Shown: positions 25,476 through 56,467 of the stretch, in pieces
Layout of the letters: each line of letters opens with the position of its first letter
Numbering within the stretch: position 1 is the first letter of the stretch
DNA from: Pseudomonadota bacterium
GTDB lineage: Bacteria; Pseudomonadota; Gammaproteobacteria; Burkholderiales; Rhodocyclaceae
Assembly: GCA_018241695.1 (NCBI GenBank)
Contig: JAFEDH010000030.1
Coordinates: 62,001 to 126,000, forward strand
Direction of reading: 5' to 3'
Length of the DNA stretch: 64,000 nucleotides
Made by a program: the position numbers and the translations under genes
Notes under the pieces: generated by a model
What the model was told of the DNA's origin: nothing
Database searches by the model: none
What the model saw: only the letters and a program-made list of their open reading frames with translations

Positions 25476-25910
25476 TCATGTGCCCAAAGGCAGGCTGCGT
25501 TCGAGCAGGATTACGGGCATTTCGCGTCCGGCACGTTGCTCGTAACGGTCGTAAGGTGGATAGATCGCTACCATGCGCTGCCAGAGGGCGGGGCGCTCGG
25601 TCGCGGTGACCACGCGGGCCCGTACCGGAAAAACTTCGGCGCCAACCTGGATTACCGCTTCCGGGCAGGCTTGCAGGTTGCGGAACCAGTCGGGCGGATT
25701 GGGCGCTCCCGCCTTGGATGCGACCACGATGTAGCGACCGGCCGCGTCGGTTTCATACACCACAGCGACGGTTCGCACTAGCCTGCTGCGCCGGCCCCGT
25801 GTATCAAGCAGCAGACAGCGGGTGCCGTTGAAATGATGGCCCTCCGCGCCACCGGTTTCCCGGTAGCGTTTGATGTGTGACGCCATTTCTACGTAGGCGG
25901 AAGGGCTCAT
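25476..25910 (-). CDS. Nitroreductase/deazaflavin-dependent oxidoreductase family protein (DUF385, DDN-like)
   Basis: A 144-aa split-barrel protein. The block VVASKAGAPNPPDWFRNLQACPEA is the hallmark of the family of mycobacterial F420H2-dependent nitroreductase Ddn, and the C-terminal TERPALWQRMVAIYPPYDRYEQ fits too. Actinobacterial members use F420; whether this organism makes F420 or the protein uses another flavin is unknown. Last gene of the twelve-gene operon, overlapping the ferredoxin oxidoreductase gene by 4 bases. May reduce an enone or quinone intermediate (inference). Confidence 0.8.
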   Translation of the reverse strand: MSPSAYVEMASHIKRYRETGGAEGHHFNGTRCLLLDTRGRRSRLVRTVAVVYETDAAGRYIVVASKAGAPNPPDWFRNLQACPEAVIQVGAEVFPVRARVVTATERPALWQRMVAIYPPYDRYEQRAGREMPVILLERSLPLGT

Positions 25911-28900
25911 GCGTGGTCTCCTGAAAGGGCCGCGAGACTGTCTCCGGGCAGCCCCAGTGCCGCAATGTGCTGCTGTAAAGCAGCCAGGGTGGTGCGGGCA
26001 TTTTCTTCCTTGATCGTGTCATAGCCGCGCACATGCTCGGGAAAGGCGGCGATGGCAATGGCCGCTTCAAGCGTGTCGGGGCCGAGCTTGGGGAGCAGCT
26101 TGCGCATCACCGATTCGTAGGTGACGATGAGATTCCGCTCGAAGCGGCGATGGGCGGCGCGGCCGAATGGGTCGAAGGGTGTACCGCGCAGGAAGCGCAA
26201 GGAGGCCAGAAGGCGCAGGACGTGAAGCATCCAGGGGCCGAACTCGCGTTTGTCGATGCGACCGGTCTTTTTGTTGCGGGGCAGGATGGGGGGTGCCATA
26301 TGGAAGGTGATGCGGAAGTCGCCCTCGAAATCGCGTTGCAGGGATTCGATGAATCCACTGCGGGTATGCAGGCGGGCGACTTCGTATTCATCCTTGTAGG
26401 CCATCAGCTTGAACAGGTGGCGGGCGACCGTGGTCGTCAGCACTTCGCTGCCCAGCGCTGCTTCGGCACGCCGCACGGCGTCCACCAGCGCCTGATAGCG
26501 TCTGGCATAAGCGGCGTTCTGATAAGCCTCCAGTTCCTTACTGTGGAAGGCGATCCGTTCATCCAGAGTTTGTGTCCGGACCCGGGTGGCCGGCTTGGCC
26601 AGAATCTGTTCGACCAGGGCGGGCGTGTGCGCGAATGCGCGGCCCCAGGCGAAGGCCCGACGATTGGTGTCCACCGCGATGCCATTGATCTCGATGGCCT
26701 GTTCCAGCGCCGCTCTGGAGAGTGGTATCCCGCCTTGCTGGAAAGCATGGCCGAGAAGGAAAAGATTGCCGGCCACGGTGTCGCCAAAGCCCTTCATGGC
26801 GATCTGGGTGGCATCGAGTTCGCTGATTTGGTCACTGCCGACGCTTGCTGACAGGGTTTCCAGCATGGGTGCTGCGGAGAGCGCCATGTCGGGGTTCCGG
26901 GCAAAGGCGGAAGTGGGCGCCACATGGTTGTTCACCGTGATCCGGGTGCGTTGCGGCGATATGCGCGTGAGCACATCCGCCGCAGTGGCGACGACGATAT
27001 CGCAACCCAGGATCAGGTCTGCCGAACCGACGCCGATCCGGCTGGAGTGGATCTGTTCGGGTCGTGCGGCGAGACGGATATGGCTGGTGACGGCACCGTT
27101 GCGCTGGGCCAGTCCGGTGATGTCGAGCACCGAGCAGGCCTTGCCTTCCAGATGGGCCGCCATGCCCATCAGCGCACCGAGCGTGACGACGCCGGAGCCG
27201 CCGATGCCGGCAACCAGAATGTTGCAGGGCTGGTCGAGGCTGGCGGGCGGCGGATCGACGAGTCGGGCGATCACGGCATCCACGGCGCTGCCATCGGTGG
27301 TGGTGCTTTCGATCCTGCGCGGTTTCGCGCCGTAAAGCGAGACGAAACTGGGACAATAACCCTTGATGCAGGAATAGTCGTCATTGCAGACCGACTGGTT
27401 GACCTGGCGCTTGCGCCCCTGAGGGGTTTCCAGCGGTTCCAGGGCGATGCAGTTGGATTGCACGCCACAGTCGCCGCAGCCTTCGCAGACCGCAGGGTTG
27501 ATCACGATGTGACGCGGCGCCGTTGCCCATTTGCCGCGTTTGCGCCGCCGGCGTTTTTCGGTGGCGCAAACCTGGTCATACACCAGGGCGGTACAGCCGG
27601 GAATTTCACGCAACCTGCGCTGCACCTCATCGAGCCGGTCACGGTGGAAGATTTCCGTGGCCGGAGGAAAGTCGCCGCGATCAGCATATTTATCCGGCGC
27701 ATCGGTAACCACCGCCACCTGTCCGACACCGATCGACTCCAGTTGCCGCACGATATAGGCCACCGCGGCCTTGCCGGCGATAGGCTGACCGCCGGTCATG
27801 GCGATCGCATCATTCACCAGGATCTTGTAGGTGATGTTGGCACCCGAGGCCACCACGGCGCGGATCGCGAGCAGGCCGGAATGGGTGTAGGTGCCGTCCC
27901 CCATGTTCTGGAAGATATGGCGGGTTTCGGTAAAGGGGGCGATCCCCATCCACATCGCGCCTTCACCACCCATATGGGACAGGGCCAGGGTGCGCCGCTC
28001 CGGCAGCCAGAGGGCGAGTCCGTGGCAGCCGATGCCGCCCATGGCGACACTGCCTGCGGGGATATTGGTCGAGGTGTTGTGGGGGCAGCCTGCGCAAAAG
28101 GCCGGCATGCGGGTCAGGGAGGGTGCCTGTCCGGCGCCCGCGGGCTGCGCCGGAGCGCAGCCGGGTCGAATCTCGAGCGTCCGCCCCAGGGTCGCGGCCA
28201 GCGGCAACAGTCTTCGCGCCAACACGGGGGTGAGCGCCGCGGCGCTCAATTCGCCCACTTCGCTGATCAGCACGGCACCGGTTTCGTCGTGTTTGCCCAC
28301 CAGACGCGGCGCGACGGGGAGGTTGATCAGCAGGCGGGCGATCTGGTCCTCGATGATGCCGCGCTTTTCCTCGACGACGAGGATCTCTTCGACGCTTCCG
28401 GCAAGATCAAGAATGCCCCGGGGTTCCAGCGGCCAGGGGACAGCCACCTTGTAGATGACCACGCCCAGCCCGGCCAGGGCGGCATCGTCCAGCCCCAGTT
28501 CTTCCAGCGCCTGGCGCAGGTCGAGATAGGCCTTGCCGGTGGCGACGAGGGCGATGCGTCGCACGGGGGCATCCAGCATCACCCGGTCAAGGTGGTTGGC
28601 GCGGACAAATGCCTTCACCGCTTCCAGCCGCTCCTGATAGAGCCGCCGTTCGGATTCGATCGGCAGCACCCCCGCGCGCAGATTGAGGCCCTGCGGTGGC
28701 AGGGTGAAATCGTCCGGCTCGACAATCCGCACCCGGTCGGGATCGATATCCACCGAGGCGGAGGCTTCCACCGTGTCGGTGATGCACTTGAAGCCTACCC
28801 AGCAGCCCGAAAAGCGCGACAGGGCAATTCCGTAGAGCCCGTAATCCAGATATTCCTGAACATTGGCCGGATTCAGGTAGGGCATGCCGGCATGAATGAA

Positions 28901-29380
28901 AAAGGTGTCGCTCTGATGGGCGATGGTGGAGGATTTCGCGCCATGGTCGTCGCCGGCCAGCAGCAGCACGCCGCCATGCTTGGCGCTGCCGGCGTAATTG
29001 CCGTGCTTGATGGCATCACCCGAACGGTCCACGCCGGGGCCTTTGCCATACCAGAGGGCAAATACGCCGTCATAGGGGGATTTTCCGAACTGGGCCACCT
29101 GCTGGCTGCCCCAGACGGCGGTAGCCGCCAGATCCTCGTTCAGGCCGGGCTGAAAGCGGACATGGTGTTCGTCCAGATGTACGCGCGCCTGGGCCAGGGC
29201 AAAGTCGTAGGTGCCCAGCGGCGAGCCGGTATAGCCTGAAATGTAGCCAGCGGTGTTGAGTCCCGCCATCACGTCGCGCTGGCGCTGCATCAGGGGGAGG
29301 CGCACGAGCGCCTGGGCGCCGCTGAGATAGACCCGTCCGGTACGGGCGGTGTACTTGTCTTCGAGAGTGACCTGCTTCAT
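25907..29380 (-). CDS. Fused indolepyruvate-type 2-oxoacid:ferredoxin oxidoreductase
   Basis: A 1157-aa single-chain enzyme of the indolepyruvate ferredoxin oxidoreductase type that converts a 2-oxoacid to acyl-CoA and CO2 with thiamine diphosphate and Fe-S clusters. Domains in order: N-terminal pyrimidine-binding half; a middle region with FCAGCPHNT and the ThDP-binding GIGCHGLA / GDGTYTHSG segments; a ferredoxin-like stretch with CEGCGDCGVQSNC and a second Cys cluster (CNDDYSC, then KGYCPS); and a gamma domain (VAGIGGSGVVTLGALMGMAA). Start at 29380 places it 4 bases after the VOC gene stop; upstream in-frame starts overlap that gene. It is an uncommon member of an apparently aerobic, oxygenase-containing operon. 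Confidence 0.9.
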   Translation of the reverse strand: MKQVTLEDKYTARTGRVYLSGAQALVRLPLMQRQRDVMAGLNTAGYISGYTGSPLGTYDFALAQARVHLDEHHVRFQPGLNEDLAATAVWGSQQVAQFGKSPYDGVFALWYGKGPGVDRSGDAIKHGNYAGSAKHGGVLLLAGDDHGAKSSTIAHQSDTFFIHAGMPYLNPANVQEYLDYGLYGIALSRFSGCWVGFKCITDTVEASASVDIDPDRVRIVEPDDFTLPPQGLNLRAGVLPIESERRLYQERLEAVKAFVRANHLDRVMLDAPVRRIALVATGKAYLDLRQALEELGLDDAALAGLGVVIYKVAVPWPLEPRGILDLAGSVEEILVVEEKRGIIEDQIARLLINLPVAPRLVGKHDETGAVLISEVGELSAAALTPVLARRLLPLAATLGRTLEIRPGCAPAQPAGAGQAPSLTRMPAFCAGCPHNTSTNIPAGSVAMGGIGCHGLALWLPERRTLALSHMGGEGAMWMGIAPFTETRHIFQNMGDGTYTHSGLLAIRAVVASGANITYKILVNDAIAMTGGQPIAGKAAVAYIVRQLESIGVGQVAVVTDAPDKYADRGDFPPATEIFHRDRLDEVQRRLREIPGCTALVYDQVCATEKRRRRKRGKWATAPRHIVINPAVCEGCGDCGVQSNCIALEPLETPQGRKRQVNQSVCNDDYSCIKGYCPSFVSLYGAKPRRIESTTTDGSAVDAVIARLVDPPPASLDQPCNILVAGIGGSGVVTLGALMGMAAHLEGKACSVLDITGLAQRNGAVTSHIRLAARPEQIHSSRIGVGSADLILGCDIVVATAADVLTRISPQRTRITVNNHVAPTSAFARNPDMALSAAPMLETLSASVGSDQISELDATQIAMKGFGDTVAGNLFLLGHAFQQGGIPLSRAALEQAIEINGIAVDTNRRAFAWGRAFAHTPALVEQILAKPATRVRTQTLDERIAFHSKELEAYQNAAYARRYQALVDAVRRAEAALGSEVLTTTVARHLFKLMAYKDEYEVARLHTRSGFIESLQRDFEGDFRITFHMAPPILPRNKKTGRIDKREFGPWMLHVLRLLASLRFLRGTPFDPFGRAAHRRFERNLIVTYESVMRKLLPKLGPDTLEAAIAIAAFPEHVRGYDTIKEENARTTLAALQQHIAALGLPGDSLAALSGDHA

Positions 29381-29384
29381 GGGT

Positions 29385-29789
29385 TCAGGGTTGCTGGCAC
29401 ATGACTTCGATGGCATTGCCATCCGGATCCTCGATCACCGCCACGGCCACGCCGGGCCGCAGATCGGTGTAATCCTGCTGCACCGTGACACCGGCTGACT
29501 TCCAGCCGGTCAGGTCGCTTTGCAGATCGGCCACCTGGATACTCATGGCACGCAGGCCGAGGGCCGCAAGGATGGGGCCGGGCAGTGCGGGCGGCAGCGC
29601 TGCGGTGCCGGCTGGCGCGACCAGCCGGATCAGGCTCTGGCCACAGGCCATGCGGACGATGCGGGCGATATCGGGAATGTCCACCTCGCCTTGCACCGGA
29701 AAGCCGAGCCGGTCGCGATAAAAGGCCACCATGTCGGCTTGCCGGCGTGTCACCAGCACGATGTCGATGGCGGATTTTTTGAGTTCCAT
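29385..29789 (-). CDS. VOC-superfamily (glyoxalase/bleomycin-resistance fold) protein
   Basis: Single-domain vicinal-oxygen-chelate protein of 134 aa: beta-alpha-beta repeat beginning DIVLVTRRQADMVAFYRDRLGFPV, and ending in the metal-ligand Glu segment VIEDPDGNAIEVM. Members act as epimerases, lyases or dioxygenases on CoA esters and other small molecules. Touches the DUF35 gene (no gap) and lies 4 bases before the oxidoreductase gene. By context a methylmalonyl-CoA-epimerase-like or isomerase role on a pathway intermediate is possible but unproven. Confidence 0.78.
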   Translation of the reverse strand: MELKKSAIDIVLVTRRQADMVAFYRDRLGFPVQGEVDIPDIARIVRMACGQSLIRLVAPAGTAALPPALPGPILAALGLRAMSIQVADLQSDLTGWKSAGVTVQQDYTDLRPGVAVAVIEDPDGNAIEVMCQQP

Positions 29790-30242
29790 TCAATTCTCCT
29801 TGGATGAGATCCTGATCCAGCAGGGCAGGGTGACGTCCTCCGTCAGCTGGCGGAAGCACAGTCGCACCCGGTCGCCGATGGCGATTGCGGTATCGCGGCT
29901 GGCACCGATATCGGCATCGGGTGTGGTCAGCAGATTGCCGATCATGCGTATGCCTGGCACGCCTTCCGGCTCAACGACCACCACGCGATAGGGTGCGAGG
30001 GCCTGATAGGCCGGCAGCAGGGGCGGGTGCACGGTGACGAAAGACCAGATGCGGCCCGACTCTCCGGCCGGCACCCATGCCAGGGGGCCATGGCAGCCGG
30101 GACAGAACACCCGTGGTGGAAAGTGATGGCTGGCGCAGGCCTCGCAGTGCTGCACCAGCAGGCGACCCTGTCGGGTGGCAGCCCAGAAGGCGGCGTCGAC
30201 CGGATTGTCGGTCACGGGCAGTATCCACGCTTCAGCAGCCAT
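29790..30242 (-). CDS. DUF35 (Zn-ribbon + OB-fold) acyl-CoA-binding protein
   Basis: A 150-aa stand-alone DUF35 protein. The N-terminal rubredoxin-like zinc ribbon has two Cys pairs (CEACASHHFPPRVFCPGC) and is followed by an OB-fold (GRIWSFVTVH, then YRVVVVEPEGVPGIRMIG). DUF35 proteins are obligate partners of thiolase-superfamily enzymes; in the cholesterol pathway the DUF35 domain of ChsH2 binds the aldolase Ltp2. Here it is one base downstream of an Ltp2-like, Cys-less thiolase, so the two probably form one enzyme. Confidence 0.87.
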   Translation of the reverse strand: MAAEAWILPVTDNPVDAAFWAATRQGRLLVQHCEACASHHFPPRVFCPGCHGPLAWVPAGESGRIWSFVTVHPPLLPAYQALAPYRVVVVEPEGVPGIRMIGNLLTTPDADIGASRDTAIAIGDRVRLCFRQLTEDVTLPCWIRISSKEN

Positions 30243-30243
30243 T

Positions 30244-31389
30244 TCAGTTCCTCAGCAGCAAGGCGCTGGTGGGTGTGGCATCGCAGGAAGTCACCAGGCA
30301 GGTGGCGGCACCGGCCACCTGGTTTTGCGCTGTGCCGCGCAGCTGGCGCACGCCTTCGGTGATCAGGTTGAAGCCGTGGATATAGGCTTCGGAAAGGCTG
30401 CCGCCGGCGGTGTTGACCGGCAGGCGTCCCCCGTTCACGGCAATGCCGCCCGATTCGACAAACGCGGCGGCTTCCCCCCGGCCACACAAGCCATAGGCTT
30501 CCAGGGAAAACAGGATCAGGGGCGAGAAGGCGTCGTAGATCTGCGCAACCTGGATATCGGCAGGACCGATGTCGGAACCCTGCCAGAGCTTGCGTGCGGC
30601 TACCGCGGATGCGCTGGCGAAAGGATCGGCACCGAATACGTCGGGCATGTTCTGCTGGCCCCGGGCCAGCCCTTGCGACCAGGCATGGATGTAGGCCGGG
30701 CGCTGGCGGCAGTCCTGCGCGTGGTCGCGGCGGGCCAGCACCACAGCCACCGCGCCATCGGACTCCAGGCAGTTGTCGAACAGGCACAGGGGATCGCTGA
30801 TCATGCGTGCCGCCTGGTATTCGGCGAGGCTGAGGGGACGGTTGTGCATCATGGCGCGGGGATTGTTCAGCGCGTGGTTGCGCAGGGTCACCGCGATGTG
30901 CCCCAGTGTGTCGCGACTGGCGCCATGGTCGTGGAAATAGCGCCGGGCCAGGAGCGCCACTTCATCCACCGGGCGCAGCAGGCCCCAGGGCTGTGACCAT
31001 TTCCAGTGATTGTTGAGCCGTGGCGGCGTCTGCGCCCAGACCCGTGAAGCCTTGCCGCTGCGCTTGCGCGCACGCCACACCACCGCCACATTGGCCTGCC
31101 CGGTGGCTATGGCCATTGCCGCCTGGCCGACGATGCCGCAGCCGGCGCCTCCACCGTAATGGACGCGGCTGAAAAAGGAAAGATCACCGAAGCCCAGGTT
31201 GCGGGCATATTCGAATTCTGGCGTTTCTTCCATGGTGTAGCAGGCCACGCCGTCCACTTCGCCGGCGGCAATGCCGGCATCCTGCAAGGCATTGCGGATG
31301 GCGCTGCAGCCCAGTTCCAGCTCGCTTTCGGTAAAGCCCTTGCCGAAGGACGTTTCACCTATGCCGACGATGGCAACCTGATCCTTCAT
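30244..31389 (-). CDS. Thiolase-superfamily protein lacking the catalytic Cys (Ltp2-like aldolase candidate)
   Basis: A 381-aa thiolase-fold protein. Where thiolases have the nucleophilic Cys (VNNNCATG in SCP2) this has VHYGGGAG, so the residue is Gly80. The GHPxGATG His segment is replaced by SEAYIHGF with Tyr336 at that position, and another Tyr lies in IYDAF (Tyr285). Ltp2, the retro-aldolase that removes the last side-chain unit in bacterial cholesterol catabolism, also lacks thiolase residues and has been reported to use two tyrosines about 50 residues apart (from memory). With the DUF35 gene directly downstream, C-C cleavage of a 3-hydroxyacyl-CoA is the best prediction. Overlaps the crotonase gene by 4 bases. 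Confidence 0.82.
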   Translation of the reverse strand: MKDQVAIVGIGETSFGKGFTESELELGCSAIRNALQDAGIAAGEVDGVACYTMEETPEFEYARNLGFGDLSFFSRVHYGGGAGCGIVGQAAMAIATGQANVAVVWRARKRSGKASRVWAQTPPRLNNHWKWSQPWGLLRPVDEVALLARRYFHDHGASRDTLGHIAVTLRNHALNNPRAMMHNRPLSLAEYQAARMISDPLCLFDNCLESDGAVAVVLARRDHAQDCRQRPAYIHAWSQGLARGQQNMPDVFGADPFASASAVAARKLWQGSDIGPADIQVAQIYDAFSPLILFSLEAYGLCGRGEAAAFVESGGIAVNGGRLPVNTAGGSLSEAYIHGFNLITEGVRQLRGTAQNQVAGAATCLVTSCDATPTSALLLRN

Positions 31390-32129
31390 GCCGGCAGATC
31401 CCGGGGCGGGTAGGCGCCGGCCAGGGCCAGGGTAGCCACGCGCGCTTCACGGGCCAGGGCGGCATCGAAGCCGGAATGTGCGCCGTGGCGCAGGGCTTCG
31501 CGCATTTCCACCAGTACGGCCGGATCGATCCGGTTGAGGCGCTCGCAGAGAGTCCGTACGGCAGGCTGCAATTCATTCTCCGCCAGCACCCGGTTCACCA
31601 GGCCGGCGTCCAGCGCCGCATCGGCATCGATGGGCTCGCCCAGCATCAGCCATTCGGTGGCCTTGCGCACACCGACACGGCGCGGCAGGTGATAGGTGGC
31701 ACCCAGTCCGGGAGGAATGTTGAGGCTGGCGAAGGGAAGCACGAAGCGGGCGCTGCGCGCGGCAAGGAGCAGATCGAAGCCGAGAATCGCGGTGACGCCG
31801 ATACCTGCGGCGGGGCCATTGATCGCGGCGATGGTGGGTTTGGGATAGTGATGGATGAGCGGGGCGAATTCGCGCAGGAAGGGCGCATCGCCCAGCCGCC
31901 GCAGGCGCTCCGGATCGTTCTGCACCTCGCGGTCGGCACCGGCGCAAAAGCCGCGGCCCGCGCCGGTCAGCACCACCGATCTGACCGCCGGGTTGTCGCG
32001 ATGTGCAAGAAAGGTGGCGAGCAGCGCATCGCCCATTTCCGGCGTGAACGCATTGAGCTTGTCGGGCCGGTTGAGAATCACCCAGGCGGTGCCCGCTTCC
32101 TGGCGATGGATGAGGATGTCGTCGCTCAT
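31386..32129 (-). CDS. Enoyl-CoA hydratase/isomerase (crotonase family)
   Basis: A 247-aa crotonase. Oxyanion segments GRGFCAGADREVQ and INGPAAGIGVTAILGFDLLL are present; the third conserved segment is FASLNIPPGLGATYHLPRRVG. I start it at the ATG at 32129, which overlaps the stop of the upstream crotonase by 4 bases; the longer open frame to 32723 only shadows that gene. One of two adjacent, clearly different crotonases, so two separate hydration, isomerisation or ring-cleavage steps are likely. Confidence 0.9.
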   Translation of the reverse strand: MSDDILIHRQEAGTAWVILNRPDKLNAFTPEMGDALLATFLAHRDNPAVRSVVLTGAGRGFCAGADREVQNDPERLRRLGDAPFLREFAPLIHHYPKPTIAAINGPAAGIGVTAILGFDLLLAARSARFVLPFASLNIPPGLGATYHLPRRVGVRKATEWLMLGEPIDADAALDAGLVNRVLAENELQPAVRTLCERLNRIDPAVLVEMREALRHGAHSGFDAALAREARVATLALAGAYPPRDLPA

Positions 32130-32908
32130 TTCTGCCCCGGCTTTTTCCATTGTGGCGGGCGCTTTTCGGCGAAGGCCCGCGGTCCCTCGGAAAAATCGGG
32201 ATGTTGGGTATGGCCGATGATGAGTTGCCAGGCATTTTCCAGTGAAGCCTGCAAGCCCTTGTCCAGCGACTGCCAGATCGCCTGTTTGGTGCGCGCCAGC
32301 GCGGCGGGGGAATGGCGCGCGATGGCGCTGGCCAGTTCGAGTGCCCGCGCCTGCAGGCCGTCGGCGGGCACCACCTCGCTGACCAGCCCCATGCGTTCCG
32401 CCAGCACGGCACTCACCCGTTCGGCGCCACCCATCAGCGCCATGCGCAGGACATGGCCCAGGGGGATGCGCCGTGCGAGCATCACCGGCTCCAGTCCGGA
32501 GACGAAACCCACCGCGACATGGGGGTCCGAAAACCATGCGTTGTCGGCGGCAATGACGATATCGGCATCGGCAACGAAATGCAGCCCGCCTCCCACGGCC
32601 ATGCCGTTGACGGCGCAGATCACCGGCTTGCTCACCTGGTTCTGCAGGGGGGTCCAGCGAATTGAATCGATGCTCTGCGCCGTATCCGTTTCGGGTGGTT
32701 CGAGCAGATCGGCACCGGTGCACAGGGCGCGCTGGCCGGCACCGGTGAAGATTGCCACCCGCGCCTCCGGATCGGTTTCGAATCGCTGCCAGACCCGCGG
32801 CAACTCCAGGCTCATTGCCTGGTTGATGGCGTTGAGCCGGTCGGGCCGGTTGAGGACGATCCGGGCAATGCCGTCGGTGACGCTGTATTCCAGGGTGGTG
32901 AAGCTCAT
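32126..32908 (-). CDS. Enoyl-CoA hydratase/isomerase (crotonase family)
   Basis: A 260-aa crotonase. It begins with FTTLEYSVTDGIARIVLNRP, has the oxyanion segments ALCTGADLLEPP and VNGMAVGGGLHFVADADIVI, and ends with the typical AFAEKRPPQWKKPG. The start at 32908 overlaps the thiolase stop by 4 bases; a start at 32938 would run deeper into that gene. In some crotonases ring opening of a cyclic beta-keto acyl-CoA replaces hydration, which is possible here given the extradiol dioxygenase in the operon. Confidence 0.9.
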   Translation of the reverse strand: MSFTTLEYSVTDGIARIVLNRPDRLNAINQAMSLELPRVWQRFETDPEARVAIFTGAGQRALCTGADLLEPPETDTAQSIDSIRWTPLQNQVSKPVICAVNGMAVGGGLHFVADADIVIAADNAWFSDPHVAVGFVSGLEPVMLARRIPLGHVLRMALMGGAERVSAVLAERMGLVSEVVPADGLQARALELASAIARHSPAALARTKQAIWQSLDKGLQASLENAWQLIIGHTQHPDFSEGPRAFAEKRPPQWKKPGQK

Positions 32909-34056
32909 TTCTCCATTCCCAGAATGGTGATGGCGCAACCGGTGGGGAATCCGCCGATGTTATGGGTCAGCGCTGTGACCGGACGGCGCCTGAGGTTGCG
33001 CTCGCCCGCCTCGCCACGCATCTGGCGGATGTTTTCGTAGAGCATGCGCACCCCGGTCGCGCCCGTGGGGTGGCCGAACGATTTCAGCCCGCCGTCGGTG
33101 TTCACCGGCAGTTCGCCATCGAATGCGAAGGTGCCGGCCGTGATGTGTTCCTTCGCCGCCCCCTTGGCGCACAGGCCCAGATCCTCGTAGGCCAGAAGCT
33201 CGGTCAGCGTGAAGCAGTCGTGCACCTGGCACAGTTCGATCTGGCGGAAGGGGTCGCTGATGCCGGCCATCCGGTAGGCTTCGGCGGCGGCATTTTCCGT
33301 CGGCTTCCAGCGCAGGAAATCGTGATCGGGATCGGTATGCGGATTGGCGGCGCTACCGCTGGCGACCGCCTTTACCCAGACCGGATCTTTGGGGTAGCTG
33401 CGTGCATGCGCGGGCGAGCTGATGATGACCGCCGCCGCGCCGTCGGACTGGCCGGCACAGTCGAACAGGCCGAAGGGCCAGGCGATCATGCGCGCCTTGA
33501 GCACATCGTCCACCGTGACCACCTTCTTGATGAAGGACTTGGGCGCATGGGCGCCATTGGCGTGGTTTTTCACCGCGATACGGGCGAGATCCTCGCGTCC
33601 CGCGCCATATTTTTTGAAGTAGGGCGCGGCGCACAGGGCGAACCAGGCCGCCGGTGTGCCGGGCAGATCGCGCACGCCACGTATGGTCACGGAAGGCCCG
33701 GAGACGCCGCGATCCTTGGGTTTGTCGTAGCCGACGACCAGCACAGTGTCATAGACTCCGGCGGCCACCGCCATGACCCCGGCGCGGAAGGCCTCGGTGC
33801 CGGTGGCGCAGTAGTTGGAGACCGCGGTCATGGGTTTGTAGAGCTTGAGGGCTTCGCTCACTTCCACCGGGCCGAGCTGGGAATAGAGCGAGCCACAGTA
33901 GATGGCATCGATCTGGCGCCGTGGATCCTCGATGCCGGCATCGGCGTAGGCTTCGAGAACGGCGTCGACGATCATGTCCTCGGGGCCTTGATCCCAGTTC
34001 TCGCCGAACTTGCAGCAGCCCGCGCCAACCACGGCGGCCTTGTTGCGCAATGTCAT
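32905..34056 (-). CDS. Thiolase (SCP2/SCPx-type acyltransferase)
   Basis: A 383-aa thiolase of the lipid-transfer/SCP2 group. Unlike the other thiolase-like protein in this operon it keeps the catalytic Cys83 (SNYCATGTEAF) and His329 (FGHPTGATG). Probably performs CoA-dependent cleavage of a bulky 3-ketoacyl-CoA. It overlaps by 4 bases the gene for an HMG-CoA-synthase-like/DUF35 fusion. Archaeal acetoacetyl-CoA thiolase and HMG-CoA synthase are known to form a complex bridged by a DUF35 protein, so a similar assembly is plausible here. Confidence 0.9.
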   Translation of the reverse strand: MTLRNKAAVVGAGCCKFGENWDQGPEDMIVDAVLEAYADAGIEDPRRQIDAIYCGSLYSQLGPVEVSEALKLYKPMTAVSNYCATGTEAFRAGVMAVAAGVYDTVLVVGYDKPKDRGVSGPSVTIRGVRDLPGTPAAWFALCAAPYFKKYGAGREDLARIAVKNHANGAHAPKSFIKKVVTVDDVLKARMIAWPFGLFDCAGQSDGAAAVIISSPAHARSYPKDPVWVKAVASGSAANPHTDPDHDFLRWKPTENAAAEAYRMAGISDPFRQIELCQVHDCFTLTELLAYEDLGLCAKGAAKEHITAGTFAFDGELPVNTDGGLKSFGHPTGATGVRMLYENIRQMRGEAGERNLRRRPVTALTHNIGGFPTGCAITILGMEK

Positions 34057-35471
34057 GGCAGCTTGCCTCGCACAGGGGTGACTTTCCAGAAATAGTTGGG
34101 GCGCCTGCCCACCTGATGAATGCGGCGGAAGGTGAATTCCACTTCCGTTCCGATCCCGATTTCGTCCGCATCCGCATCGGTGGCCTGCAGATAGAGGCGC
34201 GGTCCGCCCGCCACCTCGGTTACGGTGATCACCGTGGGTGGACTCGGGTTGGGAAAAAATGCGTCGCGTGAATAGGTAATCACCGATCCATGGCGATCAG
34301 CGTAGCGGACGGGCTGGAAGTGATCGGCACAGCCGCAGCGCACGCAGATCCGGCCCTTGGGGAACTGATGGGTGCCGCACTGGCACACCTGGCCTTCCAG
34401 CGAGAGATTGGCATCGCGCTCCCGATAATGCGCCGTGGCGGAATTGCCCGGTTCGCCGCCGGGCTCGAATTCGGTGGCCAGCAGTTGTCGTGCGCTCAGA
34501 TACCAGGCATGGCTCACGACCCGGCCGAGGGCCTCCTGGCCAGCAAGAGAGCGAGCAGGCGGCGGCGGGGCGACATCGAGCTCGATCATGGCGGCATCGG
34601 CACCATCACCATAATTGGCCAGCAGCAGGCGTTCGCCGGCTTGCGCCTCCTCAAGGCCGGCACACAGCTGCAGCAGGGCGAACGATGCCCCGGTACAGCC
34701 GATGCGGCCCGGCCAGTCGCGTCCGATCACACGTTCGAGCGGCAGATGATGGGCTGCCGCAATTTCGCGGAGGCTGCGTGAATCGGGCGCGTACAGGGCG
34801 ATGCGGTCGATGCGCTGCAGGTTGCCGCCTTCCGCTTTTGCCATCGCATCCAGGGCACGACCGATCTGATCCTTGTAGCCATGGTCGAGGATGAAGCGGT
34901 TTTCCCAGCCATGGACGAAGCGCTCGCCGGCACCACGCCAGACATCCAGCATTTCGTTGCTCAACTGGACCGGAACGCCAATACGGCCGAAACCGCCACG
35001 ATTGCCCAGCAGCAGGGCCGCGCCGGCATCGCCGAATTCCAGTTCGGCAGCATCGCCGGGCGTCATCTGGCGCACATCGCCTGCGATCACCAGGCAGGAA
35101 GCGATGCGGCCGCTGGCCACCAGGGCGCCCGCGGCATGCAGCGCCTGGGTGCCGGAACGGGTGCTGGCGGTAATGTCGAACGTCATGACGTCATCGCGCA
35201 ATCCCAGGGTTTTGGCGGCAATCGCGGCGCCCTGCTTTTCACCATAGGGTGCGCTGGTGGTGGCGAAGATGAGCGCGTCGATCTCGCTGCGATCCATGTT
35301 GCCAGCGCCGGCCAGAGCATTGCGGGCCGCGGCGACGGCCAGGGTCAGGCTGTCCTCGTCCGGGCCGGCGAGGGTGCGCGCTGTGCTGCCCTTGCGCCCG
35401 AGGCTGGCCGCCGTGAGGCGGTGGATGGGCAGATAGGCGCCATAAGCGATGATGCGGGCATCCATGGTCAT
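34053..35471 (-). CDS. HMG-CoA-synthase/KAS III-like protein fused to DUF35, catalytic Cys replaced
   Basis: A 472-aa two-domain protein. Residues 1 to about 340 have the KAS III/HMG-CoA synthase thiolase fold (IIAYGAYLPIHR, later FGDAGAALLLG). Residues about 345-472 are a DUF35 module with zinc-ribbon cysteines 363, 365, 376 and 379 and an OB-fold. At the nucleophile position the sequence is DITASTRSG, with Thr104 where homologues have Cys (DVTNACYGG). By eye the His and Asn segments are also altered: APDS where HQAN is expected and GCTG where GNTG is expected. It may be a scaffold or an enzyme with new chemistry. Four-base overlaps on both sides tie it to the SDR and the thiolase. Confidence 0.83.
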   Translation of the reverse strand: MTMDARIIAYGAYLPIHRLTAASLGRKGSTARTLAGPDEDSLTLAVAAARNALAGAGNMDRSEIDALIFATTSAPYGEKQGAAIAAKTLGLRDDVMTFDITASTRSGTQALHAAGALVASGRIASCLVIAGDVRQMTPGDAAELEFGDAGAALLLGNRGGFGRIGVPVQLSNEMLDVWRGAGERFVHGWENRFILDHGYKDQIGRALDAMAKAEGGNLQRIDRIALYAPDSRSLREIAAAHHLPLERVIGRDWPGRIGCTGASFALLQLCAGLEEAQAGERLLLANYGDGADAAMIELDVAPPPPARSLAGQEALGRVVSHAWYLSARQLLATEFEPGGEPGNSATAHYRERDANLSLEGQVCQCGTHQFPKGRICVRCGCADHFQPVRYADRHGSVITYSRDAFFPNPSPPTVITVTEVAGGPRLYLQATDADADEIGIGTEVEFTFRRIHQVGRRPNYFWKVTPVRGKLP

Positions 35472-36379
35472 GCTTCCGCTCCGCGCGGGCGCACACCATC
35501 GTGAAAGGGATAGGGCTTGCCCAGGATGCCGAAGGCGCCGAATTCCTGCGGCAGGTGCAGATTGAAATAGCGCACGATTTCCTCCAGCGTCCAGCCGCCG
35601 GGGCGGATCAGGGTTTTGCCGTAATGAGGCTGCACCATATGGGAAATGCGCTCACCGCCAGTGCCGAAGATCTGGCCGCTGACGTGGCCGGCCAGATGGC
35701 TGCAGAGGAACACGACCATCGGTCCATTGAGTGCGGGATCGATCCAGTCGGCGACAGCGGCGGGCTTGTCACCCTTGTAAGTGTCGGACATGCCGGTCGA
35801 ACCGAGGGGGCCGATGGCGTTGACGCGAATGCCTTCCTTCGCCAGTTCGGTGGCCCAGGTGTAGGTCATGGAGGCGATGGCACCCTTGGCCGCGCTATAG
35901 GCGGTCTGGCCGAAACTGCCGAAGTGGGCGCCAGAAGTGGTATTGACGATGGCACCGCCGTGGCCCTGTGTCTTCATGCGCAGCGCCGCGGCCTGGGCGC
36001 ACCAGAAGGTGCCTTTGACATGTACGCGCCAGACCGCATCGAATTCCTCGTCGGTGCACTTGAGAAAGCTGCGGTCGCGCAGATTGCCGGCGTTGTTGAC
36101 CAGGATGTCGATGGCGCCAAAGGCACTGACACAATCGGCGATCAAACGCTCGGCGCCGGCGCGGCTGCCGATATCGGCCTGGCTGCCGATCGCCTTGCCT
36201 CCGGCGGCCTCGATTTCGTGGACAACCGTTGCGGCCCGTTCCGCATCCAGGTCGTTGACCATCACGCTGGCGCCGGCGGCGGCCAGATGCAGGCAGTGCC
36301 CGCGGCCGATGCCCTGACCGCCGCCGGTGACCACGGCGGCCTTTCCGGCGAGAAGCCGGGTGAGATCGAGATCGTTCAT
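35468..36379 (-). CDS. SDR, HSD17B4/MFE-2-type (3R)-hydroxyacyl-CoA dehydrogenase candidate
   Basis: A 303-aa SDR with TGGGQGIGRG near residue 18, NNAG at 95-98, and Tyr161-xxx-Lys165. The segment RDRSFLKCTDEEFDAVWRVHVKGTF resembles the SDR domain of peroxisomal multifunctional enzyme type 2, which oxidises (3R)-hydroxyacyl-CoA. That fits the MaoC-type hydratases upstream, which make the R isomer. Start at 36379 overlaps the acyl-CoA dehydrogenase stop by 4 bases; the open frame continues to 36976 as a shadow of that gene. Substrate specificity is inference. Confidence 0.85.
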   Translation of the reverse strand: MNDLDLTRLLAGKAAVVTGGGQGIGRGHCLHLAAAGASVMVNDLDAERAATVVHEIEAAGGKAIGSQADIGSRAGAERLIADCVSAFGAIDILVNNAGNLRDRSFLKCTDEEFDAVWRVHVKGTFWCAQAAALRMKTQGHGGAIVNTTSGAHFGSFGQTAYSAAKGAIASMTYTWATELAKEGIRVNAIGPLGSTGMSDTYKGDKPAAVADWIDPALNGPMVVFLCSHLAGHVSGQIFGTGGERISHMVQPHYGKTLIRPGGWTLEEIVRYFNLHLPQEFGAFGILGKPYPFHDGVRPRGAEA

Positions 36380-37500
36380 GGAGTCTCCAGGGGGCCGAAC
36401 ATGCGTTCGGCGATACGGTCCTCCAGCGTCGCAGGATCGCCGTTGAATAGTTGCAGATGCTTGGCGCGGCGGAAGAAAAGCTGGGGATCGGCTTCGAGGG
36501 TGAAGCCGAAGCCGCCGTGCACCTGGATGGAAACCGCCGATGCCTTGCGCAGCACCGCAGTGTTGAACAGTTTGGCCTGATTCGCAGCCTGGGCGTTGTC
36601 GATGCCTGTATCGGCCTGCCAAGCGGCGTAATAGGCGAAGCTGCGGGCCGCGTCCACCTCTGTTGCCATCTCTGCAAGATAGTGGGCAATCGCCTGGAAT
36701 GCGCCGATCGGCTTGCCGAACTGCTCCCGTTCCTTGGCGTAGTTCACCGACATCTCCTGCACCGCCTGGGCTGCTCCGGCAGCAAAGGCGGCCTGGAGCA
36801 TGCCACCCTGATCGAGCACGGACTCCCAGGTCGACCAGAAGGTGCCGCCCGCGAGGCTTCCTTGCACCGGAGCGGCTTCCATACGTATCTCGCACAACCC
36901 GTCGTTGCCCAGGCTGGGCTGCGGGGAAATGGTCACGCCCGGTCCGCGCGGATCGAGCAGGAACCCTGCCGGACAACCCTCGATATCGCGTGCGATGACG
37001 ATGATCAGATCCGCATCACTGGCGAAAGGAACCAGATGCTTGATGCCGTCGATTACCCGCTGATCCGCATGCAGCCTGGCTTCGGCCCGGATGCCGCTCG
37101 GGGTGGTGCTGCGTCCCGGTTCATCGATGGCGATCGTGGCGATGCACGTGCCACTGGCCAGTGCGGGCAGCCATCGTCGGCGCAAGGCGGCATCACCACA
37201 GGTGCCGATCAGGCGCGCCGCCAGATAGGCACTGACGAAATGGGGTGAGCAGGCCAGTCCGCGGCCCAGTTCTTCGTAGAGCACCGCAGCGCCGACCTGG
37301 TCGAGAGCGATGCCGCCATCCTCCCCGGAAATGAAAATGCCGCAGAAACCGGCTTCGCCCAGGGCGTTCCAGATTTCGGGGGCATAGCCCTTGCCCGCGG
37401 CTTCGGCGCGGCGCAGGGCGGGGAGGGATTGAGCCTTCCGGCACAGGGCGCGAACGCTCTCCCGCAGCAGAATCTGGTCTTCGGAGAAATCAAAATCCAT
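36376..37500 (-). CDS. Acyl-CoA dehydrogenase
   Basis: FAD-dependent acyl-CoA dehydrogenase of 374 aa: MDFDFSEDQILLRESVRALC at the N-terminus, KEREQFGKPIGAFQAIAHYLA and IQVHGGFGFTLEADPQLFF in the C-terminal domain. The middle domain lacks the canonical TEPxxGSD segment, as in the short subunit at 13546. It could pair with the acyl-CoA dehydrogenase at 40562 in a heteromeric enzyme, although that gene is in the neighbouring operon. Starts 12 bases after the extradiol dioxygenase stop. Confidence 0.9.
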   Translation of the reverse strand: MDFDFSEDQILLRESVRALCRKAQSLPALRRAEAAGKGYAPEIWNALGEAGFCGIFISGEDGGIALDQVGAAVLYEELGRGLACSPHFVSAYLAARLIGTCGDAALRRRWLPALASGTCIATIAIDEPGRSTTPSGIRAEARLHADQRVIDGIKHLVPFASDADLIIVIARDIEGCPAGFLLDPRGPGVTISPQPSLGNDGLCEIRMEAAPVQGSLAGGTFWSTWESVLDQGGMLQAAFAAGAAQAVQEMSVNYAKEREQFGKPIGAFQAIAHYLAEMATEVDAARSFAYYAAWQADTGIDNAQAANQAKLFNTAVLRKASAVSIQVHGGFGFTLEADPQLFFRRAKHLQLFNGDPATLEDRIAERMFGPLETP

Positions 37501-37512
37501 GCAAGCCTCTGC

Positions 37513-38499
37513 TCAGCGCTGGCCAGTGTTGTCGTCCTGCAGTCCGGATGCCATTTCCGCAATCGCCTCGACGGTCAGGCCCTTGTGGCCCCAGACATCT
37601 CCCTCGCAGAACTGGTTGGGAACCCAGTGCTCGTCGATCTGTACCGGATCGCAACCGATTTCCACATCGAAGCCGGAGGGGCCGCGCATGTAGAAGGACA
37701 GCATGTGGTCATTGGTGTGGCGGCCGAGGGTGCTGGTGATCGTCATACCTGCCTTTTGCACCCGGTCCATGATGCAGCCGACCTGATCGATACCGGTCAC
37801 CTCGAACATGACGTGATGCAGCCCCCTGATGTCTCCCACCTTGACCATGCCGACACTGTGGTGGCGCTGGTTGCAATGAAGGAACTGGATCGACATGCCT
37901 GCCTCGGCATTGATCACCAGGTAGTCGCTCAGGCGCATGCCCAGTGCGCGGGTGTAATACTCGTAGGTCGTATCGATATCGTCGACGAACAGGTTCACGT
38001 GGCCGAATCCCACTTTCCCGGCCACGAAGCTGATTCCCAGCGGGGAGTGGAAACGGTAATCGCGGGTGGGGCCGACATAGATTTCGATCGCGTTGCCCAT
38101 CGGGTCGCGGCTGTGTGCCAGATGACGCACACTGCGCGCGGCGGCTTCGGCCGGCGTTCCGTTCCTGACCGGCGCACCGGTGGTCTTCAGGCGTTCCAGC
38201 GTGGTACGGAAGCCTTCCTCGTCGCCGGCATCGAAGCCGAGATAGCGCAATCCTTCCGCACCGGGATGAACGGCAACCCGCCATTGGTGATCGTCCAGCT
38301 TCAGATAGACCGAGCCGTCCGGGCCGATGCCGGAACCCTGGCTGGCCGGACCGGGATTGTCGGGATCGCCGGGCATGCCCCAGCTTTCTCCGGGCCATGC
38401 ACGCGCCGGCATCATGCCCAGAATGCGGGTCCCGTACTGCAGCCATTGCTCCGGTGCGTGGGCACCGATGCCGATATATCCCAGGGCTGAAACGCTCAT
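37513..38499 (-). CDS. Type I extradiol ring-cleavage dioxygenase (BphC/HsaC-like)
   Basis: Fe(II)-dependent meta-cleavage of a catechol-type ring; 328 aa with two VOC domains. Predicted metal ligands are His167 (GFGHVNLF), His229 (LHHVMFEV) and Glu280 (FDVEIG), with the second-shell His-His of QRHHSVG and Tyr270. The C-terminal STLGRHTNDHMLSFYM and the following Gly-Phe-Asp-Val-Glu block strongly resemble HsaC of steroid ring degradation and BphC of biphenyl degradation. It is roughly 30 residues longer than HsaC, with a Gly/Pro-rich insert at residues 31-62. First gene of the twelve-gene operon, behind an operator at 38517-38530. Confidence 0.92.
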   Translation of the reverse strand: MSVSALGYIGIGAHAPEQWLQYGTRILGMMPARAWPGESWGMPGDPDNPGPASQGSGIGPDGSVYLKLDDHQWRVAVHPGAEGLRYLGFDAGDEEGFRTTLERLKTTGAPVRNGTPAEAAARSVRHLAHSRDPMGNAIEIYVGPTRDYRFHSPLGISFVAGKVGFGHVNLFVDDIDTTYEYYTRALGMRLSDYLVINAEAGMSIQFLHCNQRHHSVGMVKVGDIRGLHHVMFEVTGIDQVGCIMDRVQKAGMTITSTLGRHTNDHMLSFYMRGPSGFDVEIGCDPVQIDEHWVPNQFCEGDVWGHKGLTVEAIAEMASGLQDDNTGQR

Positions 38500-39199: not shown

Positions 39200-39664
39200 T
39201 CACGAGTATCTTAAGACGAATTCGGCTGCCATGAGGGGCTGCTCCGGATCGTCGGTGAATGCCTGGTATTCACGGATCAGGTCGGTGCCCTTGTCGCCCA
39301 CGGTGATCGCGTTCAGGCGGGTGCGACAGCGCACAGCCGATCCGGCCCGTAGCGGGGCGAGGAAGCGCACCCGGTCAAGCCCGCGGTTGACTGCCTGGCG
39401 ATGCCCCGCGATCTGCCATGACTGCCGCGGAGAAAGGCGTGGCAACAGGCTCAGGAGCAGCATGCCATGGGCGACCGGTGCACCGAAGGGACTTTCGCGG
39501 AGGCAGCGCTCCACATCCACATGCAGCCAGTTTCGATCCCCCGAGAGTTCGGCGAATGTATCGATGCTTGCCTGATCGACCGTCAGGACAGGCCCGGGGG
39601 CAGACCATAGGCCGAGGTGTTTTTGCAGGGCGGCTGCATCGCGGAAATCGATGGATTCGGTCAT
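39200..39664 (-). CDS. MaoC-like (R)-specific hydratase
   Basis: A 154-aa hot-dog-fold protein. The hydratase-2 motif is present as FAELSGDRNWLHVD (Asp-x4-His) followed by FGAPVAHGMLLLSLL, the conserved helix with His-Gly. Hydrates a trans-2-enoyl-CoA to (3R)-hydroxyacyl-CoA. It overlaps the next MaoC-like gene by 4 bases; three consecutive genes here are of this fold. A single-domain protein of this type works as a homodimer. Confidence 0.87.
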   Translation of the reverse strand: MTESIDFRDAAALQKHLGLWSAPGPVLTVDQASIDTFAELSGDRNWLHVDVERCLRESPFGAPVAHGMLLLSLLPRLSPRQSWQIAGHRQAVNRGLDRVRFLAPLRAGSAVRCRTRLNAITVGDKGTDLIREYQAFTDDPEQPLMAAEFVLRYS

Positions 39665-40086
39665 TTTGCATCTCCGGCAGGCAGGAAGGCTTCAACCTCA
39701 CCTTCCGTCACTGTGCGATCGTCGCGCTGGAAGCTGATGGCAAGGGTGAGGGCCGTGCCTGCCACGGTATCGATTCGGGCAGAGACCGTCCCGCGGATGA
39801 TCAATGCATCCCCCGGGCAGACCGGGGCCTTCATGCGGCAACGCAGACGTCGTACCCGTGCCGACGGGCCCAGGGTATCGGTGGCATAACGGCTGAGCAG
39901 GCCCTGCAGGGTCGGTGTGTTCATGATCACATCGGGCAGGCCGGCGGCGAGAGCGTGGCGGTGATCATGATGCTGGGGCGCCAGATCCCGCGCAGCGAAA
40001 GCGGCACCGATCACCATTCGGGCCGTCACGGCAACGCTGAGTTGGGGCAGGGTTTCACCCAAAACAGGCAAGGATGCGTGGCTCAT
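39661..40086 (-). CDS. MaoC-like dehydratase, catalytic half
   Basis: A 141-aa hot-dog-fold protein. An Asp-x4-His pair is present (ARDLAPQHHD), but the following helix reads DVIMNTPTLQGLLSRY without the usual His-Gly. It overlaps both neighbours by 4 bases. With the N-terminal-type MaoC protein encoded just upstream it probably makes a split double-hot-dog hydratase, comparable to the ChsH1-ChsH2 hydratase of cholesterol side-chain degradation. Confidence 0.78.
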   Translation of the reverse strand: MSHASLPVLGETLPQLSVAVTARMVIGAAFAARDLAPQHHDHRHALAAGLPDVIMNTPTLQGLLSRYATDTLGPSARVRRLRCRMKAPVCPGDALIIRGTVSARIDTVAGTALTLAISFQRDDRTVTEGEVEAFLPAGDAK

Positions 40087-40559
40087 GTGCGATAGGCAAA
40101 AAACCGGATGCGTTCGGTGGCTACGACATCACCATCTTCGTTCCGGTAATGCAGTTCGATGGCCCAGCGGCGGCCACTGCGGCCACGCCGCTCTTCTTCC
40201 GGCCCCAGCTCGGCCAGACGTTGCTCCACCATGATGCGGTCCCCCGGATGCACATCGGCATGCAGTTCAAGTTCGTTCTCTTCCACCAGGGCATGGGGAT
40301 AGCCGAGGATCTCCTTGAGCCGGTGATGCAGTTCCACCGGGCGTGTGCGGGTTTCCCCGTCGGGTACCGGGCCGTCGTCAGGGCGGGTCCAGGCGGTCAC
40401 CATGGCGGGCGGGCAGATCGGTGGCAAGGACGAGTCGTTCCGGTAGCGCGGGTGCGTATCCGCGATGGCGCAGAGAAAGTTCTGCCAGACCTGGGCCGAG
40501 GCTTCCACGGCGGCAGGATCCACGATACGCAAAGTGAAAAGATCCGCTTCGGCGCTCAT
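40083..40559 (-). CDS. MaoC N-terminal-type / FAS1-like dehydratase domain protein
   Basis: A 158-aa protein of the MaoC_dehydrat_N (FAS1-like dehydratase region) type. It has an N-terminal helix, PPAMVTAWTRPDD, then HHRLKEILGYPHALVEENELELHADVHPGD and RRWAIELHYRNEDGDVVATER. Such domains have a hot-dog fold but lack the catalytic Asp-His and act with a catalytic MaoC half, here probably the 39661 gene with which it overlaps by 4 bases. Separated from the acyl-CoA dehydrogenase by 2 bases. Confidence 0.8.
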   Translation of the reverse strand: MSAEADLFTLRIVDPAAVEASAQVWQNFLCAIADTHPRYRNDSSLPPICPPAMVTAWTRPDDGPVPDGETRTRPVELHHRLKEILGYPHALVEENELELHADVHPGDRIMVEQRLAELGPEEERRGRSGRRWAIELHYRNEDGDVVATERIRFFAYRT

Positions 40560-43030: not shown

Positions 43031-43183
43031 GGCAAGAGGGATCGCTTGGCTTCTGCATGAGATGGGTCATCCGTGAGTACCGCATACCTGTTGCCTGACT
43101 GGAAGAATCGACACGATATTCGCTTTTATAAAAATTGTTGATGTTTCATCGTGGTTGGGATAATGTTACAAAAAAGAAACAGA

Positions 43184-43197
43184 CCGTTTCGTTTTGT
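43184..43197. promoter_or_regulatory. Weak operator-like match in the TonB receptor leader
   Basis: CCGTTTCGTTTTGT agrees with the extradiol-side operator (ACGTTTCGTACCGT) at 10 of 14 positions, keeping the CGTTTCG core but not the second half. It would lie downstream of the putative receptor promoter, where a repressor could act. Possibly chance. Confidence 0.25.
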
Positions 43198-43354
43198 TTA
43201 TCTCCGGATGGGCGGCCTGGTGGCGGGGGGTGCTGGAGGGTGGCTTGCACCAGGTAGTGCACGTCCTTCCCGAACGCGCAGGAAGGAGTCGAGGGCTCGT
43301 AATGCGATGTCTGCCGGTTTTGGCAGGGTCTTGAAAATTTTCCAAGGGGACACC

Positions 43355-55072: not shown

Positions 55073-55351
55073 ATGATTCGGACATTCAGACATCGCGGAC
55101 TTGAACGGTTCTTCAAGAAGGGCGACCACCGGGGCATCATCGCCAAGAGCGAGGCGCGCATCGAGCGCATTCTCGACCGACTGGATACGGTGCCCAATCC
55201 CGAGGACATGAACATCCCCGGCTTCAAGCTTCACGGCCTGGGCGGGGATCGGAAAGGCACCTACGTGGTATCGGTGACCGGCAACTGGCGCATTACCTTT
55301 CGTTTCGAGGGCGAAGACGCTGTCGATGTGGACTTGGAGGATTATCACTGA
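55073..55351 (+). CDS. higB: HigB-type toxin (RelE superfamily)
   Basis: A 92-aa RelE-fold ribosome-dependent mRNA endonuclease toxin of the HigB/Killer group. The segments MIRTFRHRGLERFFKKGD, GFKLHGLGGDRKGTYVVSV, and the strand NWRITFRFEGEDAVDVDLEDYH are typical. Toxin precedes antitoxin, which is the HigBA order, and the stop overlaps the antitoxin ATG by one base. Confidence 0.92.
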   Translation: MIRTFRHRGLERFFKKGDHRGIIAKSEARIERILDRLDTVPNPEDMNIPGFKLHGLGGDRKGTYVVSVTGNWRITFRFEGEDAVDVDLEDYH

Positions 55352-55668
55352 TGAAGTCGCTACGAAACCCGAACCGGCGGCCCACGCACCCTGGTGCGAT
55401 TCTGCGTGAGGATGTGTTGCCCGCCCTGGAAATGACGCAAACGGAATTCGCTGGGCGCCTGGGCGTATCCCGCCTATCCGTGTCGGACTTGCTGCATGAG
55501 AAGCGTGGCATGTCGCCGGAAATGGCCATGCGCGTCGCCAAGCTGCTCAACACTACGCCCGAGAGCTGGCTGCGCATGCAGGAGGCGGTCGACTTGTGGG
55601 ACGTGCAGCAAAAACCCGAGAAACTGGCCGGTATCAAGCCCCTCAAGAGGGAACTGCTGGCCGCATAG
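55351..55668 (+). CDS. higA: HigA-type antitoxin
   Basis: A 105-aa XRE-family antitoxin that neutralises HigB and represses the operon. The N-terminal RRPTHPGAILREDVLPALEMTQTEFA and the helix-turn-helix (GVSRLSVSDLLHEKRGMSPEMA) are the HigA signature, and the C-terminal ESWLRMQEAVDLWDVQQ is the toxin-contacting end. It is translationally coupled to higB. Its probable operator is the inverted repeat at 55025-55047. Confidence 0.93.
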   Translation: MKSLRNPNRRPTHPGAILREDVLPALEMTQTEFAGRLGVSRLSVSDLLHEKRGMSPEMAMRVAKLLNTTPESWLRMQEAVDLWDVQQKPEKLAGIKPLKRELLAA

Positions 55669-55706
55669 AGCTTTCACCCGCCCCCGACCGGGATCGCCGG
55701 GGATGC

Positions 55707-55740
55707 GTGCCGAGAAGGAGTTGCATCTCCGACTCGGCAC
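55707..55740. other. Perfectly nested hairpin downstream of higA
   Basis: An 8-bp stem GTGCCGAG / CTCGGCAC (55707-55714 and 55733-55740) encloses, across a symmetric AA/GA internal loop, a second 4-bp stem GGAG / CTCC with loop TTGCAT. There is no T-run, so it is not a standard intrinsic terminator. It could protect the higBA mRNA 3' end, or be a recombination-related element of the accessory region. Confidence 0.45.
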
Positions 55741-55789
55741 TGACCACAACGCAAGACGTACAAGGGGAATTGCATTAGAACAGGGGGGT

Positions 55790-56321: not shown

Positions 56322-56334
56322 CTCATCTCTCCTT

Positions 56335-56460: not shown

Positions 56461-56467
56461 GACCGCG

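Follow-up and report, generated by a model that had tools for sequence, protein, structure and literature searches.

In a 64,000-nucleotide stretch of a Rhodocyclaceae genome (GenBank assembly GCA_018241695.1, contig JAFEDH010000030.1, positions 62,001 to 126,000; hereafter the window), the gene at 34053..35471 encodes a 472-residue fusion protein: a domain resembling 3-hydroxy-3-methylglutaryl-coenzyme A (HMG-CoA) synthase and KAS III (about residues 1-300), a linker, and a DUF35 domain (about 350-472). We propose that this protein provides a pseudo-synthase/DUF35 scaffold for a catabolic thiolase complex, which would thiolyse the 3-ketoacyl-CoA derived from the A-ring remnant of a steroid. 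We put the probability of this reading at roughly two in three. The partner would be the 383-residue SCP2-type thiolase (NCBIfam PRK06157) encoded at 32905..34056, on the same strand and overlapping the fusion gene by 4 bp, as an earlier note on this DNA had observed. Positions here are those of the window, and all features lie on the minus strand unless marked (+).

The synthase-like domain is predicted to retain the fold of HMG-CoA synthase, but the catalytic Cys, Glu, His and Asn are all replaced. Two independently made alignments place Thr104 (codon 35160..35162), within the segment D99-ITASTRSG, opposite the catalytic Cys of archaeal HMG-CoA synthase and opposite a Gly of PhlA; the latter agrees with the published Gly115 (PMC6392133). 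The earlier note had singled out Thr104 and the altered His and Asn segments, and the alignments bear it out: the His segment reads Y-APDSRS, and in the Asn segment (GCTG) the Asn is replaced by Cys259 (codon 34695..34697). The Glu is changed as well, to Thr72. Asn is kept in 37 of 65 relatives. Cys259 is the only other Cys of the fusion at a catalytic position and is found in just 4 of the 65, with Phe in its place in the relatives from Novosphingobium sp. ES2-1 and locus L051. We considered this residue as an alternative nucleophile and rejected it, as it sits at the Asn position and is not conserved. Judged from the alignment, no other Cys appears to lie near the synthase-like active site.

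The fused DUF35 looks intact, again in agreement with the earlier note. Its putative zinc-ribbon ligands, Cys363, Cys365, Cys376 and Cys379 (34335..34385), are invariant in 65 relatives, and by sequence its top match among solved structures is the DUF35 subunit of an archaeal complex (6ESQ chain E, E 6e-9), consistent with an OB fold. The score against Pfam PF01796 is 22.6, under the curated cut-off of 27.1. Besides the four Cys and Arg134, several structural residues of the fusion are invariant. In the pseudomonadotan relatives L040, L042, L044, L045 and L047, most or all four of the zinc-ribbon Cys are gone and the remainder is conserved.

Replacement of the catalytic Cys is, as read from these alignments, a family-wide trait and not a one-off, a point that the earlier note had missed. 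Homologues of the fusion were drawn from genome sample searches, plasmids and GTDB genomes. A scan of genome contigs with the single fusion sequence as query returned zero relatives; the same scan with an alignment as query returned 527 matches, of which the best 80 were kept. Among 96 fused proteins, the position of the nucleophile is occupied by Leu in 66, Gln in 13, Thr in nine, Ile in three and Val in two, the rest having Pro, Ser or Arg. Cys is missing there as well in about 31 more fusions, drawn from plasmids of actinobacteria and proteobacteria and from archaea (a more distant archaeal set among them), so that none was found at this position in roughly 125 bacterial and archaeal fused relatives. 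Where synthases have Glu, 85 of the 96 have Thr. Every unfused archaeal HMG-CoA synthase compared alongside has retained the Cys and the Glu, together with the His and the Asn wherever that stretch of the protein is available. In a tree of synthase-like domains, the fused forms separate from HMG-CoA synthase and PhlA (95/100), although several rows are long-branched and one archaeal fusion (L163) is placed with the outgroup.

A Cys-less synthase-like protein also occurs unfused. In two genomes (G706, a Desulfotruncus locus, and G708, an Ammonifex locus), thiolase, synthase-like protein and DUF35 are encoded by three adjoining genes, which look like the system in unfused form. Since such versions exist, loss of catalysis would not need fusion, though the two coincide in our sample. 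This possible unfused version, with separate neighbouring genes for a thiolase, a Cys-less synthase-like protein and a DUF35 protein, is seen at loci L160 and L161.

The thiolase, in turn, retains a full SCP2-thiolase catalytic set: the nucleophile Cys83 (codon 33808..33810), the motif H279-D-C281-F (33211..33222) and G-H329-P (33067..33075), of which Cys83 and His329 had been noted earlier. None of these eight residues (Cys83, His279, Asp280, Cys281, Phe282, Gly328, His329 and Pro330) varies among 51 partner thiolases. Fusion and thiolase also travel together. In a sample of 398 genomes chosen across phyla, ten carry the fusion (E up to 1e-25) and the identical ten carry a thiolase of the PRK06157 type (E up to 1e-90); each is present in 11 copies, and the three parts of a thiolase/HMG-CoA-synthase/DUF35 complex are therefore all found in the same genomes, as in the adjacent genes of the window. 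At most other loci the two are adjacent. In one genome (G475), however, they lie on separate contigs, neither of them near a contig end, which indicates that the pairing is not mere neighbourhood. Distance correlations between the two fusion domains and the thiolase are 0.64 and 0.77; these values are not controlled for species history and are compatible with co-evolution.

Predicted structures and the sequence match of DUF35 point to one known assembly, since the best matches of all parts fall in 6ESQ, the archaeal thiolase/HMG-CoA-synthase/DUF35 complex. The model of the fusion (predicted local distance difference test score 93.9, predicted template modelling score 0.94) is closest to the synthase, chain I (Z 46.7, root-mean-square deviation 1.5 over 327 residues). 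PhlA-type and MucA-type subunits follow at Z 41.5 to 44.4, and ordinary synthases at about 38. The model of the thiolase (93.6 and 0.94) is closest to the thiolase, chain A (Z 57.0). The earlier note had suggested an archaeal-like complex serving catabolism, and the structural matches and co-occurrence favour that part of its proposal, including a synthase half that should no longer act as a synthase. The system described here differs from the archaeal complex in three respects: the synthase half has none of the four catalytic residues, DUF35 is fused to it and not separate, and the gene context is catabolic, whereas the archaeal complex serves mevalonate synthesis.

A bacterial precedent for a dead synthase subunit, one of two that the earlier note did not mention, is provided by the PhlABC acyltransferases (PpATase and CsATase; PDB 5M3K and 9SKH). 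These combine a dead synthase-like subunit, a DUF35 protein and a catalytic thiolase-fold subunit. PhlA has Gly115 in place of Cys and Cys83 in place of Glu; PhlC alone catalyses, and PhlA has no direct role in catalysis (PMC6392133). The fusion shows the same losses as PhlA. Unlike the fusion, PhlA and PhlB are separate proteins, and PhlC moves acyl groups to phenols without CoA, whereas the fusion is partnered with an SCP2 thiolase of the CoA type. The MucABC acyltransferase of Streptococcus macacae (PDB 9VBO) is a second multi-component complex whose synthase-like subunit lacks the Cys (it has Glu), but identity is only about 20%, the subunits are separate and the chemistry is different. 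On the catabolic side, BbsAB, the benzoylsuccinyl-CoA thiolase (PDB 7PXP), is an SCP2-type thiolase for which we know of no synthase-like subunit. A published account treats it as a complex of thiolase and DUF35 (PMC12329534). Both catabolic assemblies of that type and thiolase-fold/DUF35 complexes with a dead synthase subunit are thus already known. What is new is a fused dead synthase-DUF35 protein that is paired with a catabolic CoA thiolase, is widespread, and can be placed in estrogen breakdown; we found no earlier report of such a pairing in the open-access literature searched.

Gene context suggests a substrate. Among plasmids, the closest relative of the fusion is carried by p3 of the estradiol degrader Novosphingobium sp. 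ES2-1, which is reported to degrade estrogens (PMC12507874). The two loci have a common core order: acyl-CoA dehydrogenase (36376..37500), a short-chain dehydrogenase (35468..36379; a candidate beta-hydroxyacyl-CoA dehydrogenase whose gene overlaps the fusion gene by 4 bp), fusion, thiolase, two enoyl-CoA hydratase family proteins (32126..32902, occupying the position that the BadI-like gene has in the edc cluster, and 31386..32120), an Ltp2-like protein (30244..31389) and a stand-alone, ChsH2-like DUF35 protein (29790..30242). The plasmid core differs by one additional hypothetical gene. Identities to the ES2-1 counterparts are 66% for the short-chain dehydrogenase, 42% for the fusion, 72% for the thiolase, 55% for the first hydratase, 61% for the Ltp2-like protein and 53% for an EdcC-like indolepyruvate:ferredoxin oxidoreductase (25907..29422). 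An EdcA-like cytochrome P450 (41771..43006) and an extradiol dioxygenase (37513..38499) have counterparts on the same ES2-1 plasmid (IM701_RS20240, 61%, and IM701_RS20245, 58%). Elsewhere in the genome there is a HIP-type degradation cluster, with FadD3 at 53%.

The same gene set is found in the edc cluster of Novosphingobium (Caenibius) tardaugens, where the gene EGO55_13555, annotated as HMG-CoA synthase, has the same operon place as the fusion gene and adjoins the thiolase gene EGO55_13550; the authors assigned it no step (PMC7793797). We presume EGO55_13555 to be an orthologue of the fusion by its operon position, the sequence comparison being with the ES2-1 counterpart. Given the synteny with the ES2-1 plasmid and the published edc gene set, with P450, extradiol dioxygenase, EdcC-like oxidoreductase and operon core all at hand, the best interpretation of the window is an edc-type estrogen 4,5-seco cluster, a context that the earlier note had not recognised.

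The published pathway runs through a 2-oxoacid oxidoreductase, a hydratase, a dehydrogenase, a thiolase, a BadI-like ring hydrolase, a dehydrogenase, a hydratase and an aldolase to HIP (PMC12507874). As we read the carbon skeleton, what is left of ring A at C10, from 4-norestrogen-5(10)-en-3-oyl-CoA, would become a 3-ketoacyl-CoA. Its thiolysis would release carbons 2 and 3 as acetyl-CoA and leave a beta-keto acyl-CoA of ring B, which could pass to the BadI-like hydrolase. For this step, the catalytically dead synthase-like domain and DUF35 would assemble with the adjacent thiolase in the layout of the archaeal complex and PhlABC, DUF35 bridging the two thiolase-fold subunits. All carbon-carbon chemistry would fall to the thiolase, through Cys83, His279/Cys281 and His329. 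The synthase-like half would hold thiolase and DUF35 in a working arrangement, as PhlA does in PhlABC, and probably also contribute to the form of the site that receives CoA or a bulky substrate. A later retro-aldol step would be carried out by the Ltp2-like protein with its own DUF35.

Several points weigh against a scaffold of this kind, or limit what can be said of its substrate. The synthase-like domain is not decaying, its mean column identity being 0.60 against 0.55 for DUF35. Arg134 (codon 35070..35072), present in 94 of 96 relatives, and the conserved PDxRxH segment are particular to the family and could reflect more than scaffolding. The assembly is our extrapolation from models of single chains, and the proposed substrate rests on pathway logic; use of estrogen by this organism is a prediction. 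Outside estrogen clusters, the pair turns up in further catabolic clusters, among them Rieske-oxygenase and MaoC ones, and membership of the family therefore does not dictate the substrate. On the other hand, in the lineage of the window the synthase-like domain is only 37-43% identical to its nearest relatives, compared with 63-71% for the thiolase. This greater divergence fits relaxed constraint on a non-catalytic partner, without proving it.

A synthase-like domain that still works in the reaction, with changed chemistry, seems to us doubtful. The conserved pocket (Thr/Leu104, Arg134 and PDxRxH) could, for example, bind the acyl-CoA, enolise the substrate or catalyse its own non-covalent retro-Claisen or hydrolytic step. 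Conservation over bacteria and archaea is strong, Arg134 stands where catalytic synthases have Ala or Ser, and PDxRxH is conserved where the catalytic His stood. Near-invariant residues of this kind, Arg134 above all, leave room for a binding or even a chemical role. However, the position of the nucleophile accepts Leu, Gln, Thr, Ile, Val, Pro, Ser, Arg, Ala, Gly, Met and Phe, and a catalytic role for a position that tolerates so many residues is hard to envisage. Asp230 and His234 of the segment are not invariant, and the fusion itself has Leu at 234. PhlA, which shows the same losses and likewise has Arg at position 134, is not directly involved in catalysis. A repurposed active partner, in which Arg134 and PDxRxH replace the Cys-Glu-His-Asn set and the pocket binds a CoA ester or acts before or after thiolysis, seems to us a similarly tentative idea. 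If it were true, there would be a whole bacterial and archaeal family of fused "dead" synthases with an uncharacterised catabolic function.

The remaining explanations fare worse than a thiolase with a synthase-like scaffold. A C-acyltransferase complex like PhlABC or MucABC, transferring an acyl group to a carbon acceptor instead of carrying out thiolysis with CoA, is improbable. The three-part layout is the same, and the synthase-like part matches PhlA and MucA in fold. Yet the thiolase model is closer to 6ESQ and to the benzoylsuccinyl-CoA thiolase, its second-best match (Z 55.8), than to PhlC (Z about 50.5), and the protein keeps full SCP2-thiolase motifs and is encoded among beta-oxidation genes. 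The active site of PhlC-type enzymes is made up of His56, Trp211 and Tyr298.

Still less can be said for a retro-aldolase complex, and with it for the aldolase-like reverse cleavage that the earlier note had raised as one possibility. The related thiolase-fold/DUF35 pairs Ltp2-ChsH2 and Sal-Shy are indeed steroid aldolases (PMC12329534). Such aldolases carry YDHF or YDCY with a catalytic Tyr, whereas HDCF is invariant in the 51 partners of the fusion. Three genes downstream, the operon moreover encodes a distinct Ltp2-like protein that has a DUF35 partner of its own. Its top solved relative is Ltp2 (6OK1, E 1e-89), YDAF replaces HDCF and the nucleophile Cys is missing. This pair fits a candidate steroid retro-aldolase for the HIP-forming step. 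The aldolase reading was rejected for the thiolase, and the option of new, aldolase-like chemistry raised in the earlier note is not supported for the fusion and thiolase.

Hardly any likelihood is left for an active HMG-CoA synthase or an unlinked, pseudogene-like leftover: the profile of archaeal HMG-CoA synthase does recognise the fusion, but at 164 bits against a cut-off of 244 and with all four catalytic residues replaced, and the open reading frame is intact, overlaps both neighbours by 4 bp and belongs to a pair conserved in many phyla. HMG-CoA synthesis was rejected as a role of the fusion. No other archaeal-type HMG-CoA-synthase-like gene was found in the genome.

Other features of the neighbourhood may be of interest. 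The gene for a flavoprotein of the F420H2-dependent quinone reductase type (25476-25910) directly follows that of the EdcC-like protein and does not belong to the core common to the window and ES2-1. Three small MaoC/hydratase-like genes (39200-40559) lie in tandem, with overlaps of a few bases, between a TetR gene and an acyl-CoA dehydrogenase gene. TonB-dependent receptors flank the cluster at 22887-25220 and at 43151-45814 (+) and are candidates for EdcT-like steroid uptake. Farther away, two small gene pairs at 55073-57129 resemble toxin-antitoxin modules, judged by eye only. On a plasmid of Streptomyces cathayae (L206), the fusion and thiolase genes adjoin an ABC transporter operon and genes for two AMP-binding proteins; the fusion there is annotated hydroxymethylglutaryl-CoA synthase despite having no Cys.

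The fusion family spans Pseudomonadota, Actinomycetota, Chloroflexota, Myxococcota, Thermodesulfobacteriota, Bacillota and archaea. Its members are annotated as "3-oxoacyl-ACP synthase", "OB-fold protein" or "hydroxymethylglutaryl-CoA synthase", names that mislead pathway reconstruction. A condensing enzyme makes no sense in the edc cluster, which is why its "HMG-CoA synthase" gene was left without a step (PMC7793797). Our analysis gives this unplaced gene a proposed role, most likely as a holder for the neighbouring thiolase. Dead synthase subunits, hitherto characterised in antibiotic-type acyltransferases, would thereby find a place in catabolic thiolase systems.

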